From assembly GCF_001632775.1 (NCBI RefSeq), contig NZ_CP015249.1, positions 2,584,686-2,648,685 on the forward strand: a stretch of 64,000 nt of DNA, read 5' to 3'. Each line of letters starts with the position of its first letter. The first letter of the stretch is position 1. Positions 33,617 through 40,665 of the stretch are shown piece after piece. Source of the DNA: Dokdonella koreensis DS-123 (GTDB lineage: Bacteria > Pseudomonadota > Gammaproteobacteria > Xanthomonadales > Rhodanobacteraceae). The notes beneath the pieces were generated by a model. The model ran no database searches and had not been told where the DNA came from. It worked only from the letters and a program-made list of their open reading frames with translations. Made by a program: the position numbers and the translations under genes.

Positions 33617-34962
33617 CCGTCGATCCCCAGCGCGCGCAGCAGGCCGCGTGCCTTGGCGCGCGTCTCCTCGAGCTCTGCGCTGGCCCGCGAATCGAACACG
33701 ATGCCGGCCCCGGCACGCCAGCGCACGTCGGAACCGGACGCCACCAGGGTGCGGATGAGGATGTTGAAGTCCATCGCGCCGCTGCGGTCGAGATAGCCGA
33801 TCGACCCGGTATAGGCGCCGCGGCCGACCCCTTCCAGCTCGGCGATGATCTCCATGCAGCGGACCTTCGGGCAGCCGGTGATGGTGCCGCCGGGAAACAC
33901 CGCGCGCAGCACCTGGCCCGGCGTGCTGCCGGCACGCAGGCGGCCGCCGACGTTGGAGACGATGTGGTGCACGTGCGCATAGCTCTCGACCGTCATCAGC
34001 TCGTCGACGACGACGCTGCCCGGCTCGCAGACGCGACCGAGGTCGTTGCGCTCCAGGTCGATCAGCATGATGTGCTCGGCGCGCTCCTTCGGATGGCCCA
34101 CCAGCTCGCGCACGCGGCCGGCCTCGTCCTCGCCCGCCAGGCGCGGCCGGGTGCCGGCGATCGGCCGGGTCTGCACGCGGTCGCCGCGGACCTCGACCAG
34201 CCGCTCGGGCGACGAGCTCGCCACTGCGCCGCCGCGCCATTGCAGCAGCGCGGCATAGGGTGCCGGGTTGGCGCGCCGCAGGGCCGCGTGCAAGGCCGCC
34301 GGCGCCACCGCCTCGGCGAAGCGGGCGCGCCATTCACGCGACAGGTTGACCTGGAACACGTCACCGGCCCGCAGGTAGTCGCCGATCCGCTCGACCCCGT
34401 CGGTGAAGCGCTCCGGCGGGTCCTCCTCCACCGCCAGCACCGGCGGCAGCGGTGCGTCGAACGGCGGGGCCGCCGCCAGGTCGGCGGCCATCGCCTCGAC
34501 CAGGCCGGCATGCGCCGGCTCGGCGACCAGCCAGGTGCAGTCGGCGGCGTGATCGACCACGATCGCCGCCGGGCAGCGCAGGGCGAGCGCGGTCGGCAGC
34601 GCCGCGTCCGCGGCCGGCAGCCGCAGCCGCGGCTCGATCCGCTGGGCGAACTCGTAGCCGAGATAGACCAGCCAGCCGCCGGTGAAGGGCAGCGCGTCGG
34701 CCGGGCCGGTGGCGCGCGCGGCGGCGAACCGCGCGTCGAGCAGGTCGAGGAAATCGCCGTCGAGCCTGCGCCCGTCCGCGTCGCGGACGTACCCGTCGGC
34801 GGCCAGCCACACGGCATCGCGCGGATACGCGAACAGGATGTCGTAGCGCGCCTGCCCGCCGCGCGCCGCGCTTTCGAGCAGGCCCGGGTAGCGCGCCGGG
34901 AACGCCGCCGCCAGCGCGAGCAGGTCGCGCCGGCCGGGCAGGCTGCGGTGGATGCGGGTCAA
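33613..34962 (-). CDS. pabB: Aminodeoxychorismate synthase component I
   Basis: 449 residues starting at a TTG whose TTGA overlaps the fabF stop; no ATG or better start exists nearby, so a rare start and translational coupling are likely. It makes 4-amino-4-deoxychorismate from chorismate with ammonia from a PabA-type subunit. Chorismate-enzyme motifs are present: [59 protein letters not shown] and the closing AGAGIVFDS. The PIAGT motif is usual for PabB. trpG at 20266-20847 could supply the amidotransferase. Confidence 0.93.
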
Positions 34963-36197
34963 ACGCGCCGGAACGCCAGGGTGCCGTTGGTACCGCCGAA
35001 TCCGAACGAGTTGGACAGCACGAAGTCGAGTCCGTGCTCGCGCGCGGTGTGCGGCACGAAGTCCAGGTCGCAGCCCTCGTCGGGATTGTCGAGGTTGATC
35101 GTCGGCGGCACCACGCCGTCGCGCAGCGCGAGGATCGAGAAGATCGCCTCGACGCCGCCGGCGGCGCCGAGCAGATGGCCGGTCATCGACTTGGTCGAGC
35201 TGACCATCAGCTTGCCGGCGTGGTCGCCGAAGCAGGCCTTGATCGCGGCGACCTCGGCGACGTCGCCGACGCCGGTCGAGGTGGCGTGCGCGTTGATGTA
35301 CTGGACCTGGTCCGGATTGGCACCGGCGTCGGCGATCGCGATCTGCATCGAGCGGCGCGCGCCGTTGCCGTCCTCGGGCGGCGAGGTCATGTGGTAGGCG
35401 TCACCGCTCATGCCGTAGCCGGCCAGCTCGCAATAGATCCGCGCGCCGCGCTTCTTGGCGTGCTCGTAGTCCTCGATCACGAGGATGCCGGCGCCGTCGG
35501 ACAGCACGAAGCCGTCGCGGTCGCGGTCCCAGGGACGGCTGGCACGGGCCGGCTCCTCGTTGCGCGTGGACATCGCGCGCGCCGAGCAGAAGCCGCCGAC
35601 GGCGGTGCCGGTGGTGGCGTACTCGGCGCCGCCGGCGATCATCACGTCGGCGTCGCCGTACTGGATCATGCGCATCGCCAGGCCGATGTTGTGCGTCGCC
35701 GTGGTGCAGGCGGTGACGCAGGCGATGTTCGGGCCCTTGAGGCCGAGCATGATCGACAACTGGCCGGAGGCCATGTTCACGATCGAGCTCGGCACGAAGA
35801 ACGGCGAGATCTTGCGCTGGCCGCTCTCGTGATAGGTGATCGAGGTCTTCTCGATCGTGTGGATGCCGCCGATGCCGGCGCCGATCGCCACGCCGATGCG
35901 CTCGGCGTCGTGCTCGTGCGGCGCGAGGCCGGCGTCGGCCAGCGCCTGCAGCGAGGCGGCCACGCCGTAGTGGATGAACGGATCCATCTTCTTGACGTCT
36001 TTCGGCGGGATGTACACCGCCGGATCGAAGTCGCGGATCTCGCCGGCGATCCGCGTCGGGAACGTGCTCGCATCGAAATGCGTGATCGGACCGATGCCGC
36101 TCCTGCCGGCCAGCACGTTGCTCCATGCGGTGGCCACGTCGTTGCCGACGGGGCTGAGTAGTCCGAGTCCGGTGACGACGACGCGACGCTTGGTCAT
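34959..36197 (-). CDS. fabF: 3-oxoacyl-ACP synthase II
   Basis: 412 residues, the usual size. It elongates acyl-ACP with malonyl-ACP and is needed for unsaturated fatty acids. The catalytic Cys is C164 in [10 protein letters not shown]; the two His are in NAHATST and [13 protein letters not shown]; the C-terminal [11 protein letters not shown] is diagnostic. It follows acpP after a terminator-like hairpin, so part of its expression may come from partial read-through. Confidence 0.96.
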
Positions 36198-36737: not shown

Positions 36738-37481
36738 CTAGGGCATGTACATGCCGCCGTTGACGTGCAGGGTCTCGCCGGTGATGTAGGCGGCGGCCGG
36801 CGAGGCCAGGAACGCCACCGCGCGGGCGATGTCGGCCGGCTCGCCGAGCCGGCCGAGCGCGATCTGGCCGACCAGGGCCTTCTTCTGCTCGTCCGGCAGC
36901 ACGCGCGTCATGTCGGTGTCGATGAAGCCCGGCGCGACGACGTTGACGGTGATGCCGCGCGAGCCGATCTCGCGCGCCAGGGACTTGGAGAACGCGATGA
37001 TGCCGGCCTTGGCCGCCGCGTAGTTGGCCTGCCCCGGGTTGCCGGTCAGGCCGATCACCGACGCGATCGAGATGATGCGGCCCTTGCGCGCCTTCATCAT
37101 GCCGCGCAGCACGGCGCGCGAGGTCCTGAACACCGAGCTGAGATTGGTGTCGATGATCGCCTGCCAGTCCTCGTCGCGCATGCGCATCAGCAGCTGGTCG
37201 CGGGTGATGCCGGCGTTGTTGACGAGGATCGACGGCGCGCCGAAGGTCTTGCCGATCTCCTCGACCAGCGCATCGACCGCGGCCGCATCGGTGACGTCGA
37301 GCACGCGGCCGGCACCGCCGCGCGCGGCGAGGCGTTCGCCGATCGCCTGCGCACCGGCTTCGCTGGTGGCCGTGCCGACGACGACGGCGCCGAGTCCGGC
37401 CAGTTCGTCGGCGATCGCGGCGCCGATGCCGCGGCTGGCGCCGGTGACCAGGGCGATCTCGCCCTCGAGGATTGCGCTCAT
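36738..37481 (-). CDS. fabG: 3-oxoacyl-ACP reductase
   Basis: 247 residues. A classical short-chain dehydrogenase, it reduces beta-ketoacyl-ACP with NADPH. The glycine-rich TGASRGIG is at 13-20, NNAG at 88-91, and the catalytic residues are S141, Y154 and K158 (YAAAK). The C-terminal [15 protein letters not shown] is typical of FabG. It follows fabD by 43 bases. Confidence 0.97.
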
Positions 37482-37524
37482 GCTGTGTCTCGCTGCAAAG
37501 GATGAAGGAGGCGGGGCCGGACCG

Positions 37525-38472
37525 TCAGGCCCAGGCCTCGCGCGCGGATTCGAACTCGCCCGGCGTGCCGAGCGTGCGGATGTCGAGCGACTTGTCGATG
37601 CGCTTGACCAGGCCGGCCAGCACCTTGCCGGGCCCGCATTCGGCCACGCGCGCGGTGCCGCCGGCGACCAGCGCCTGCACGCAGTCGGTCCAGCGGACCG
37701 GCAGGTACAGCTGGCGCACCAGCGCTTCACGGATGTCGGCCAGACCGGCGTGCACACGGGCGTCCACGTTCTGCACGACCGGGATCGACGGCGCGCTCCA
37801 GGCATAGGCGCCGATCGCCTCGGCGAGGCGGTTGGCGGCCTCGCGCATCAGCGGCGTGTGCGAGGGGACGCTGACGGCGAGCTTCACTGCCTTGCGCACG
37901 CCCTGCTCGGCCAGCCTGGCCAGGGCCGCGTCGACCGCGGCGACATGGCCGCCGATGACGATCTGGCCGGGCGCGTTGTAGTTGGCCGGCACCACCACCT
38001 CGCTGCCGGACACCGTGCGGCAGACCTCCTCGACCAGCGCATCGTCGGCGCCGAGCACCGCCGCCATCGCGCCGGCCCCGGCCGGCGCGGCCGCCTGCAT
38101 GGCCTGTCCGCGGATGCGCACCAGGTGCGCGGCGTCACGCAGGCCGATCGCACCGGCGGCGACCAGCGCCGTGTATTCGCCGAGGCTGTGGCCGGCCAGC
38201 CGCGCCGGGCGGGCGCCGCCGACGGCCAGCCAGAGGCGCCAGACGGCGACGCCGGCGGCCAGCAGGGCCGGCTGGGTGTACTCGGTGCGGTTGAGCATCT
38301 CTTCCGGCCCGCCCTGCGACAACGCCCACAGGTCGACGCCGGCGCCCTCGGACGCCTCGGCGAAGGTCTGCCGCACGTCCGCGTGCAGTTCGGCCAGCTC
38401 GGCCAGCATGCCGAGCGCTTGCGAGCCCTGGCCGGGAAACACGAATGCCACGTCGGTGGGGGATGCGGTCAT
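37525..38472 (-). CDS. fabD: Malonyl-CoA:ACP transacylase
   Basis: 315 residues. It loads malonyl groups onto ACP. The nucleophile is S96 in AGHSLGEYTALVAAG; FVFPGQGSQ, the Arg in RIRGQAMQ and the catalytic His in SVPSHTPLM are also present. Its ATG overlaps the stop of the kinase-like gene (ATGA). Confidence 0.96.
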   Translation of the reverse strand: MTASPTDVAFVFPGQGSQALGMLAELAELHADVRQTFAEASEGAGVDLWALSQGGPEEMLNRTEYTQPALLAAGVAVWRLWLAVGGARPARLAGHSLGEYTALVAAGAIGLRDAAHLVRIRGQAMQAAAPAGAGAMAAVLGADDALVEEVCRTVSGSEVVVPANYNAPGQIVIGGHVAAVDAALARLAEQGVRKAVKLAVSVPSHTPLMREAANRLAEAIGAYAWSAPSIPVVQNVDARVHAGLADIREALVRQLYLPVRWTDCVQALVAGGTARVAECGPGKVLAGLVKRIDKSLDIRTLGTPGEFESAREAWA

Positions 38473-39278
38473 GTCAGATAGTCGATCAGGAAGGACAGGC
38501 CGAACAGGTCGAAATCACGGTCCGGCAGGTAGTCGGCCAGCAAGGTGAAGGCCAGCAGCGCAAGGAAGCCGAGCGCCTCGCGCAAGGCGGCGACCGCCCG
38601 GCCGAGCGCACGGGCACGCTCGCCGAACGGGCGGGTCGCCCGTTCGAGGAAGCGCAGCCGCCCGGCCGCATGATCGAGGCGGGCGACCACGGGCGCGCGG
38701 GCCTGGGCCAGCCCGGCCGCCAGCACGCCGGCCAGCGCGCGGTGGTCGCGGCCCTGGTAGCGGCGGGCGACGCCGGAAGCGAACAGCAGCCAGTCGCGCG
38801 CCTGCGCGCTGTCCAGCGGCATCACGCGGCCCGGATCCTCCTCGAAATCGAGGAAGCCGAAGCCGTCCGGGCTGACCGTGAGATTGCGCGGCAGCGGCTG
38901 GCCGAGATAGACGCCGCGCCGGTGGGTTTCGGCGATCGCCAGCGCGGCGCCGCCGACCAGGAGGTCGACCGCCTCGGCGCTGCCGGCCACCTCACGCAGG
39001 CGCAGCGACAGCGAGGACCCCACGTCGCTCAGCAGCAGCACGTCACGGCCGTCGGCGAGCACGCGCGGCACGCGCACGCCCTGCCCGGCCAGCTCGCCGA
39101 GACGGCGCGATTCGATGCACTTGGCCTCTTCGGGCGAATCGACCGGGTCCGGGCGCAGCGGCTCGATGCCGAGCTGGCGGGCGGCGAAGTCCAGGGCGTG
39201 GTGCGCCAGCCGACGGCGGCGGTGCGCATAGCGCTTGAGCCAGACCGCGCGGCCGTCGAGCAACAGGCGTTGAGCCAT
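38469..39278 (-). CDS. Kinase-like (Bud32/Kdo-kinase-related) protein inside the fab cluster
   Basis: 269 residues, with a strong AAGGAGG before the ATG. The fold pattern is that of a small eukaryotic-like/LPS-kinase-type phosphotransferase. It has an N-lobe Lys (K15 in AVWLKRY), Glu in SPEEAKCIESRRL, a hinge-like VLLLSDVG, a catalytic-loop equivalent ETHRRGVYLGQPLPRN (119-132), and a DFG-equivalent FLDFEED (142-148). The usual HxD is replaced by LGQ, so the mechanism may differ or activity may be lost. The C-terminus (about 235-268) is strongly hydrophobic and probably membrane-inserted. Its place between fabH and fabD, with overlap to fabD, suggests a lipid-linked role. Confidence 0.7.
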   Translation of the reverse strand: MAQRLLLDGRAVWLKRYAHRRRRLAHHALDFAARQLGIEPLRPDPVDSPEEAKCIESRRLGELAGQGVRVPRVLADGRDVLLLSDVGSSLSLRLREVAGSAEAVDLLVGGAALAIAETHRRGVYLGQPLPRNLTVSPDGFGFLDFEEDPGRVMPLDSAQARDWLLFASGVARRYQGRDHRALAGVLAAGLAQARAPVVARLDHAAGRLRFLERATRPFGERARALGRAVAALREALGFLALLAFTLLADYLPDRDFDLFGLSFLIDYLT

Positions 39279-39302
39279 GATGGTCCTCCTTCGAGGGGCC
39301 GC

Positions 39303-40280
39303 TCAGTAGCGGATCAGCGCCGACCCCCAGGTGAAGCCGCCGCCGAATGCCTCGAGCAGCAGCAACTGGCCGCGCTGGACCTTGCCGGAGCGTACCGCGT
39401 AGTCCAGCGCCAGCGGCACCGAGCCCGACGAGGTGTTGCCGTGCCGGTCGACGGTGACGATGACGCGGTCCATCGGCATGTCCAGCCGCTTGGCCGTCGC
39501 CTGGATAATGCGCAGGTTCGCCTGGTGCGGGATCAGCCAGTCGATCGCGCTCTTGTCGAGCTGGTTGGCTTCGAGCGTCTCGTCGACGACGCGGTCGAGC
39601 GTCTTGACCGCGACCTTGAACACCTCGTTGCCGCTCATGCGGATCGTGACGCCGCAATTGGGTTCGTCGGCGCGGAAGCCGGTGGAAACGCCGACCGGCC
39701 CGTAGAGCAGGTCCTTGTGACCGCCGTCGGCGTGCAGGTGCGTGGAGAGGATGCCGGGCTCGTCCGAGGCCTTGAGCACGACCGCGCCGGCGCCGTCGCC
39801 GAACAGCACGCAGGTCTGGCGGTCGCTCCAGTCGGTCATGCGCGACAGCGTCTCCGAACCGACCACGAGCGCGGTCCGGACGGAGCCGGACCGGATGAAC
39901 TTGTCGGCGATGCCGAGCGCATACATGAAGCCGCTGCAGGCCGCGTTCACGTCGAACGCCATGCAGCCGTTGGCACCCAGCCGATGCTGGAGCAGGCAGG
40001 CGGTGGACGGGAAGACCAGGTCCGGCGTCGTCGTGCCGAGCACCAGCAGGTCGATCTCCGAGGCCTGGACACCGGCCGCCTCGAGCGCGCGGCGCGCCGC
40101 CTGCAGGGCCAGGTCGCCGGTGGTCTCTCCGTCGGCAGCGATGTGCCGCTCGCGGATGCCCGTACGCGAGACGATCCATTCGTCGGTGGTTTCGACGAGC
40201 TTCTCGAGATCCGCGTTGGTCAGGACCTTCTCGGGCAGATAGCTGCCGGTACCCGCGATGCGTGAGTGGATCAGAGTCAA
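39303..40280 (-). CDS. fabH: 3-oxoacyl-ACP synthase III
   Basis: 325 residues from a TTG at 40280; an in-frame stop lies only four codons upstream and there is no earlier ATG or GTG, so the rare start is well supported. It starts fatty-acid synthesis by condensing acetyl-CoA with malonyl-ACP. The triad is visible: C115 in [11 protein letters not shown], His in [10 protein letters not shown] and Asn in HGNTSSGS. It follows rpmF after a strong terminator; no plsX lies between, unlike the E. coli cluster. Confidence 0.95.
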
Positions 40281-40355
40281 CCCCTTCTGCAGCTAGCTAC
40301 GTGGCGTCGGCGACCGCCGGGTGGTGCCCGGAACGCCGCCCACCGGCAAAAACGC

Positions 40356-40382
40356 GAAGCCGGCCCGAAGCGGGCCGGCTTC
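40356..40382 (-). terminator. Strong terminator between rpmF and fabH
   Basis: A perfect 12-bp stem (GAAGCCGGCCCG 40356-40367 with CGGGCCGGCTTC 40371-40382) and 3-nt loop are followed on the minus strand by GCGTTTTTG. It separates the yceD-rpmF unit from the fab genes. Confidence 0.85.
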
Positions 40383-40441
40383 CGAACACATCGCCGACGC
40401 GCCGGCGCGGACGGGCCGCGGCCAGCCGCCGGCAAGGATCG

Positions 40442-40636
40442 TCAGTCCTCGACCCGCACCGAGGCGCGCGTGTCGATGACCTTCTTGCCGCGGTAGTAGC
40501 CATCCTTGGTCACGTGGTGACGGATGTGCACCTCACCCGAGGTCGGGTCGGTCGCCAACTGCTTGGCGGTGAGCGAATCGTGGGCGCGACGCATGCCGCG
40601 GCGCGACGGGGTTTTGCGACTCTTGGCAACTGCCAT
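40442..40636 (-). CDS. rpmF: 50S ribosomal protein L32
   Basis: 64 residues. The N-terminal [21 protein letters not shown] is diagnostic for bacterial L32. The zinc-binding Cys residues found in some L32 proteins are absent, as in most gammaproteobacteria. It lies 29 bases after yceD in the usual yceD-rpmF order. Confidence 0.97.
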
Positions 40637-40665
40637 GACACTTCTCCGATGAAATCTGCGTGTTG

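Follow-up and report, generated by a model that had tools for sequence, protein, structure and literature searches.

What is the role of a kinase-like gene in the middle of a bacterial fatty-acid synthesis cluster? The question is raised by an ORF of 269 amino acids with an ATG start (X in the following), found in a 64,000-nucleotide stretch of Dokdonella koreensis DS-123 (contig NZ_CP015249.1, positions 2,584,686 to 2,648,685; the window). The order of the cluster is yceD, rpmF-like, fabH, X, fabD, fabG, acpP, fabF and pabB, with rpmF and acpP named by eye; feature coordinates are given in Table 1. No description of the gene was found in the open-licence PMC literature, and the accessible parts of a paper on Xanthomonas FabH (PMC5011732) do not mention it.

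Table 1. Features of the X locus (positions in the window)
Feature	Position	Strand	Evidence
rpmF-like ORF (L32)	40442..40636	-	named by eye; no room for plsX before fabH
Terminator-like hairpin, rpmF/fabH gap	40356..40382	-	1 in the stretch against a mean of 1.2 in shuffles (weak)
fabH, upstream neighbour of X	39303..40280	-	TIGR00747 (453 bits) / NF006829 (466 bits), over cut-off
Ribosome binding site AGGAGG, 6 nt 5' of the X ATG	39285..39290	-	read directly from the sequence
X, kinase-like protein with a predicted tail anchor and Gln for the HRD Asp	38469..39278	-	ORF, AF2 model (pLDDT 89.5), fold matches, orthologues
Loop LGQPLPRN, codons 125-132; Gln127 at the HRD Asp position	38883..38906	-	alignments; Q in 113/117 rows, A in 4
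DFE motif (DFG equivalent), codons 144-146	38841..38849	-	Asp and Glu invariant in alignments A1, A2, A3
Predicted membrane anchor at the C-terminus (hydrophobic helix, then acidic tail; residues ~228-258)	38505..38597	-	hydropathy, charge, AF2 model
fabD, ATGA overlap with X	37525..38472	-	TIGR00128 (321 bits), over cut-off
fabG, exact start unsettled	36765..37505	-	PF13561/PF00106 (frame scan)
fabF	34959..36197	-	PF00109/PF02801

The original prediction, confirmed as an observation and supported in part as an interpretation, had located X between fabH and fabD, with a strong ribosome binding site and stop-start coupling to fabD. The first two points were borne out by the model matches of the neighbours and by the AGGAGG sequence (Table 1). 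The coupling is likewise present in the window, where the TGA stop of X (38471-38469) and the ATG start of fabD (38472-38470) share bases in an ATGA sequence. Elsewhere a 4-nt overlap was seen in 3 of 75 fab-linked loci (L051, L052 and L054), and the median distance from X to fabD in these 75 loci was 114 nt (the L078 value is implausible because of start choice). The coupling is restricted to a few genomes and is not conserved. The spacing between fabH and X had a median of 75 nt in the fab-linked loci.

Relatives of X were found in Xanthomonas, Stenotrophomonas, Lysobacter, Luteimonas and related genera, the closest one (78% identity in the best segment) in a Dokdonella MAG. Over 992 non-independent pairs of relatives the median dN/dS was ~0.23, compared to 0.14 for fabH; X is under purifying selection. 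Because of the homologues in other genera, the low dN/dS and the confidently predicted fold (see below), X must be a real gene, and the possibilities of a chance ORF or a decaying gene were ruled out.

An AlphaFold2 model built from 36 aligned sequences had a pLDDT of 89.5 and a pTM of 0.85. The top PDB match in Foldseek was a chain of the KEOPS complex (8k20_B, E 4.4e-6). VIA-align ranked PRPK/Bud32 first (6wqx_C, Z 14.7, 185 residues, 3.5 A); Rio1 (Z 13.8), APH(3') (Z 12.1) and the WaaP-ACP complex (6dfl_A, Z 11.4, 174 residues, 4.2 A) were also matched. These comparisons rest on model residues 1-213, and the residues after ~213 were barely probed by the matches. SelO was absent among the 50 VIA-align entries listed, which has no bearing on relatedness. 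The model and both searches agree on a kinase-like protein, and the structural check suggested with the original prediction returned Bud32 as well as WaaP. We are confident that the modelled protein has a two-lobed protein-kinase-like fold, including the C-lobe whose lack would have refuted the original prediction, and by this predicted fold X would be placed in the protein-kinase-like (PKL/ELK) superfamily.

The active-site residues read in the original prediction, a Lys and a DFE motif with LGQ in place of HxD, are all present (K15, LGQPLPRN and DFE). In alignments of X relatives the residues K15, E56, P71, H119, R131, N132, D144, E146 and D162 were invariant or nearly so; K15, E56, N132, D144, E146 and D148 were invariant in alignment A2, and D144 and E146 in A3. 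The alignment of orthologues at the LGQPLPRN loop, which had been proposed as a check, revealed that the HRD Asp is missing family-wide: Asp was found at position 127 in none of 117 rows (80 best loci plus 37 from a 200-genome set, some genomes being counted twice), nor in any row of a broad set of 21, where the position was occupied by Q (16), R (2), G (2) or A (1). As the pattern behind the 117-row count requires an R and an N following the loop, conservation of R131 and N132 was assessed on the alignments. The accessible part of PMC1821047 lists ten residues as key to the kinase-like superfamily (G52, K72, E91, P104, H158, H164, D166, N171, D184 and D220 in PKA numbering). Seven of them are kept in X by alignment mapping (as K15, E56, P71, H119, N132, D144 and D162), H164 and D166 are replaced, and no space was seen for the G52 loop.

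Because Lys, Glu, Asn and Asp are kept, X is suggested to bind a nucleotide; the suggestion is a cautious one because there seems to be no place for a canonical glycine-rich loop ahead of K15. The missing catalytic Asp, whose absence sets X apart from active canonical kinases, argues against canonical phosphotransfer and makes the label 'phosphotransferase' given in the original prediction doubtful. However, a protein that has lost the Asp is not necessarily inactive: SelO, a kinase fold without the HRD Asp, is argued in the accessible part of PMC3281104 to retain activity.

X had no Pfam match at E<=1 and only sub-threshold NCBIfam matches. For arch_bud32 it scored 12.1 bits, compared to a cut-off of 125, which places it outside the Bud32 family; weak matches to this model were seen in 18 of 25 X relatives (best 4e-8). 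The Kdo/WaaP model PF06293 (gathering cut-off 21.3 bits) did not match X at E<=1 and hit 11 places in the genome, none of them at X, and among the 25 relatives nine matched it at E<=0.1 (best 3.1e-6). The relative L042 scored 23.1 bits. When the profile was aligned directly to E. coli WaaP, the match was weak and not significant (probability 1.3%, E 0.041), so direct WaaP homology by profile was rejected. The ACP-binding arginines of WaaP could not be placed on X, nor the conserved basic residues of X on WaaP.

The nearest Asp-bearing sequences found for X were KdkA-like Kdo kinases, whose motif is HADLN. Profile comparison of a KdkA-like set gave E 2.9e-8 with 36 Lysobacterales X rows and E 2.7e-11 with the broad X family, aligning the QPLPRN/QAFxRN loop over DLNARN (HADLNARN). 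X itself, with its LGQPLPRN loop, did not match the KdkA model NF002475 (equivalog cut-off 142 bits) at E<=1. A separate, intact, Asp-bearing KdkA is encoded in the same genome (NF002475, 249.8 bits), which makes X an additional relative without the Asp. In a wider proteobacterial set (L219, L220, L221, L222 and L223) the loops read WHGGAQxRN, WHGAAQxRN or HGRPAxRD, without a catalytic Asp, and these proteins have no family model of their own in Pfam or NCBIfam. X is a member of an undescribed, Asp-less proteobacterial branch of the known eukaryotic-like kinase fold. What makes the branch worth attention is a kinase-fold family uniformly devoid of the catalytic Asp, for which neither database holds a model.

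It is against this background that the activity of X has to be weighed. X could be catalytically active in an atypical way, as a kinase, an AMPylator or an ATPase in which another acid (E146, D148) stands in for the HRD Asp, as argued for SelO, and would then act on a membrane-located lipid or lipid-A precursor. The invariance of the remaining active-site residues in A2 and A3 (see above) would fit such an enzyme, as would the fact that its nearest profile is that of a lipid-A sugar kinase. In contrast, members of the family vary at the Asp position, where Q, A, G and R all occur, and the canonical KdkA of the same genome already covers that reaction. On balance we consider an active enzyme somewhat unlikely.

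The hydrophobic C-terminus, from which membrane contact had been predicted, was also confirmed. The maximum of the 19-residue Kyte-Doolittle average was 1.91 at residues 229-247; the segment is short, and pLDDT falls to ~61 at the C-terminal end. Among the 76 fab-linked rows in the best 80 of 227 loci, an 18-residue hydropathy of at least 1.5 was found at the C-terminus in 73, the exceptions being L051 (truncated), L110 and L126, and the mean net charge in the fab-linked rows was +3.0 in the 15 residues before the segment and -3.6 after it, a pattern suited to the predicted anchor. Hydropathy and charge suggest that X is tail-anchored and that its kinase-like domain, on the positive side of the helix, faces the cytosol; the protein is probably membrane-anchored. 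In the 200-genome set the tail was present in 18 of 22 fab-linked rows and in 1 of 15 unlinked rows; in Luteibacter, where X is unlinked, it was found in four of four. Because the tail tracks related genomes, it provides no independent evidence for a role in fatty-acid synthesis.

Searching 200 Lysobacterales genomes gave 43 X matches at E<=0.001, 41 of them strong (E<1e-16). The context was determined for 37 of the strong matches (all except G036, G093, G152 and G182): 22 had the order fabH-X-fabD and 15 lay elsewhere. Among the best 80 (Lysobacterales) of 227 confirmed loci, which over-represent close relatives, 75 had fabH-X-fabD; in one, fabH-X lay at the end of a contig, and in four, all from Luteibacter, X was elsewhere. 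One locus of the collection (L098) is titled Bacillus subtilis SK7B5 and has a Stenotrophomonas-like fab cluster with X; the assembly is probably contaminated or mislabelled. The survey proposed with the original prediction thus shows that X does not always lie between fabH and fabD: it does so in the great majority of these best loci, but 15 relatives are located elsewhere and many genomes lack X. A scattered distribution unlinked to fab genes, which had been named beforehand as evidence against the prediction, is found in part, for the same two reasons.

Another 60 fab regions were taken from genomes in which no fab-linked match had been obtained, and X was found in none of them. fabH was seen in 57 of these regions, with a gap to fabD of no more than 600 nt in 54, and no X remnants were detected in the fabH-fabD gaps at E 0.01. 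Absence of X outside the fab cluster is uncertain, as in GC-rich genomes only some of the first-look candidates were scored (7 of 43 in G013). Direct neighbourhood of fabH and fabD, with X missing, is seen in many Lysobacterales. The longer fabH-fabD gaps of L186 and L203 contain unrelated ORFs, so the junction accepts inserts; by eye, the junction ORFs of the X-less L186, L203 and L162 are homocysteine S-methyltransferase-like and glutathione S-transferase-like. No shared neighbour was found across all groups of unlinked X relatives. Genes resembling those of biotin synthesis (bioB, bioF, bioH and bioC by eye) were seen near X relatives in one group only (f9; L039, L041 and neighbours).

A tree of X, computed with a quick method with SH-aLRT support only from 36 representative rows minus L051 (truncated) and four Luteibacter rows (no fab genes), plus the window, broadly followed the FabD+FabH tree. 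Recent transfer of X into the cluster is thus unsupported. Agreement of the trees demonstrates only descent, and gene order, too, can persist by descent within one order. By its distribution X is an old passenger or accessory gene of the fab cluster that has often been lost, and because it is lost in many relatives, it has no core function in fatty-acid synthesis.

These observations raise the possibility that X is functionally unconnected with fatty-acid synthesis, being a pseudokinase for another envelope process, which settled at the permissive fabH-fabD junction in a Lysobacterales ancestor and was carried along by descent. The relatives outside the cluster, Luteibacter included, the other ORFs at the junction, the absence of X from the 60 fab regions and the common tree all speak for such a history, whereas the occurrence of X at one junction in the same orientation across two families, its purifying selection and its close spacing to fabH speak against it. 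We regard this explanation as possible rather than probable, and a role unrelated to fatty acids is about equally likely as an acyl-ACP-type role.

A different link to lipid synthesis was suggested by the position of X. The usual site of plsX is between rpmF and fabH. No plsX was found there in the window (40280-40660), nor was a PlsX match obtained in the whole one-contig 4.45-Mb genome or in any of eight X-bearing genomes checked. X, being encoded in the same cluster, might therefore replace the missing PlsX, passing acyl groups to glycerol-phosphate acylation by a kinase-type step. However, PlsY, the acyltransferase that uses acyl-phosphate, was also not found in the genome of the window, whereas PlsB is present (954 bits). 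PlsX occurred in 92 of the 200 genomes, all in families f5, f7, f8, f9 and f10 and none in f1 or f2, and the fab-linked X rows of this set come from f1, f2 and f3, where PlsX is gone. The apparent link between X and PlsX loss is confounded by descent, because most f1 genomes also lack X: neither PlsX nor a strong X match was found in 30 of 34 f1 and 16 of 35 f2 genomes (the weak matches in G174 and G106 being counted as absent). The absence of PlsY, the presence of PlsB and the many genomes with neither gene largely refute X as a PlsX substitute, and we regard it as very improbable.

Our preferred reading, held tentatively, is that X is a tail-anchored, cytosol-facing pseudokinase or atypical kinase, nearest to KdkA by profile and to Bud32/PRPK by fold, which binds a nucleotide, does not perform canonical phosphotransfer and acts by binding a partner, possibly one linked to acyl-ACP. 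X keeps the residues that hold ATP-Mg, the catalytic Asp having been lost, and nucleotide binding would change how firmly it holds a partner located at the inner membrane. The likeliest partner would be acyl-ACP or an acyl-ACP-using enzyme, because X is co-encoded with FabH, FabD and AcpP and because its fold-mate WaaP binds acyl-ACP tightly: according to the accessible part of PMC6147952, the solubility of WaaP depends on acyl-ACP, which is bound through a basic surface of the C-lobe, with the acyl chain lying in a hydrophobic tunnel of that lobe. X would then serve as a reporter or a buffer of acyl-ACP in the synthesis of phospholipids (PlsB) or of lipid A. Control of FabH/FabD or sensing of a lipid precursor, as offered in the original prediction, are putative roles. 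Nucleotide binding, membrane topology and non-catalytic action are what we infer for X, and acyl-ACP as the partner is a guess by analogy. The most attractive mechanism would be gating of the lipid supply at the membrane by an acyl-ACP-binding protein of the WaaP/KdkA type, encoded beside acpP. Against a fab-tied X counts that the relatives elsewhere share no neighbour and mostly have no tail.

A more far-reaching version, which we consider improbable, would make X the first of a class of membrane-tethered acyl-ACP-sensing pseudokinases: in bacteria that have lost PlsX and PlsY, a relative of the Kdo kinase would have given up phosphotransfer, kept the binding of ATP and acyl-ACP and come to link the supply of fatty acids to the choice between making phospholipid and making lipid A. 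Should X read acyl-ACP, it would regulate the supply of membrane lipids in PlsB-only bacteria and illustrate how an enzyme fold can become a sensor. Even if the link to the fab genes is merely positional, X offers a testable bacterial pseudokinase.

Among known systems, WaaP/RfaP (6dfl) shares the fold of X and is an example of a kinase fold tied to lipid substrates. WaaP differs in that it retains the HRD motif and is catalytically active (PMC6147952, accessible part), and binding of acyl-ACP by X would be an analogy to it. SelO resembles X in keeping the Lys, the Glu and the metal-binding residues with the catalytic Asp replaced (PMC3281104, accessible part); it belongs to another sequence family, and the likeness is one of residue logic alone. 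Bud32/PRPK of the KEOPS complex and the Rio kinases are the best fold matches. Both retain the catalytic Asp; X falls far below the Bud32 cut-off (see above) and has no Kae1/TsaD gene beside it in the window. KdkA is the nearest by sequence profile; X shares with it an E...L...G.PVP, H..G, RN and IDF pattern and, in most of the set, an Arg four residues after the Asp position (+4). The two differ at that position itself, which is Asp in KdkA (HADLN) and Gln in X; X lies below all thresholds and has an added hydrophobic tail.
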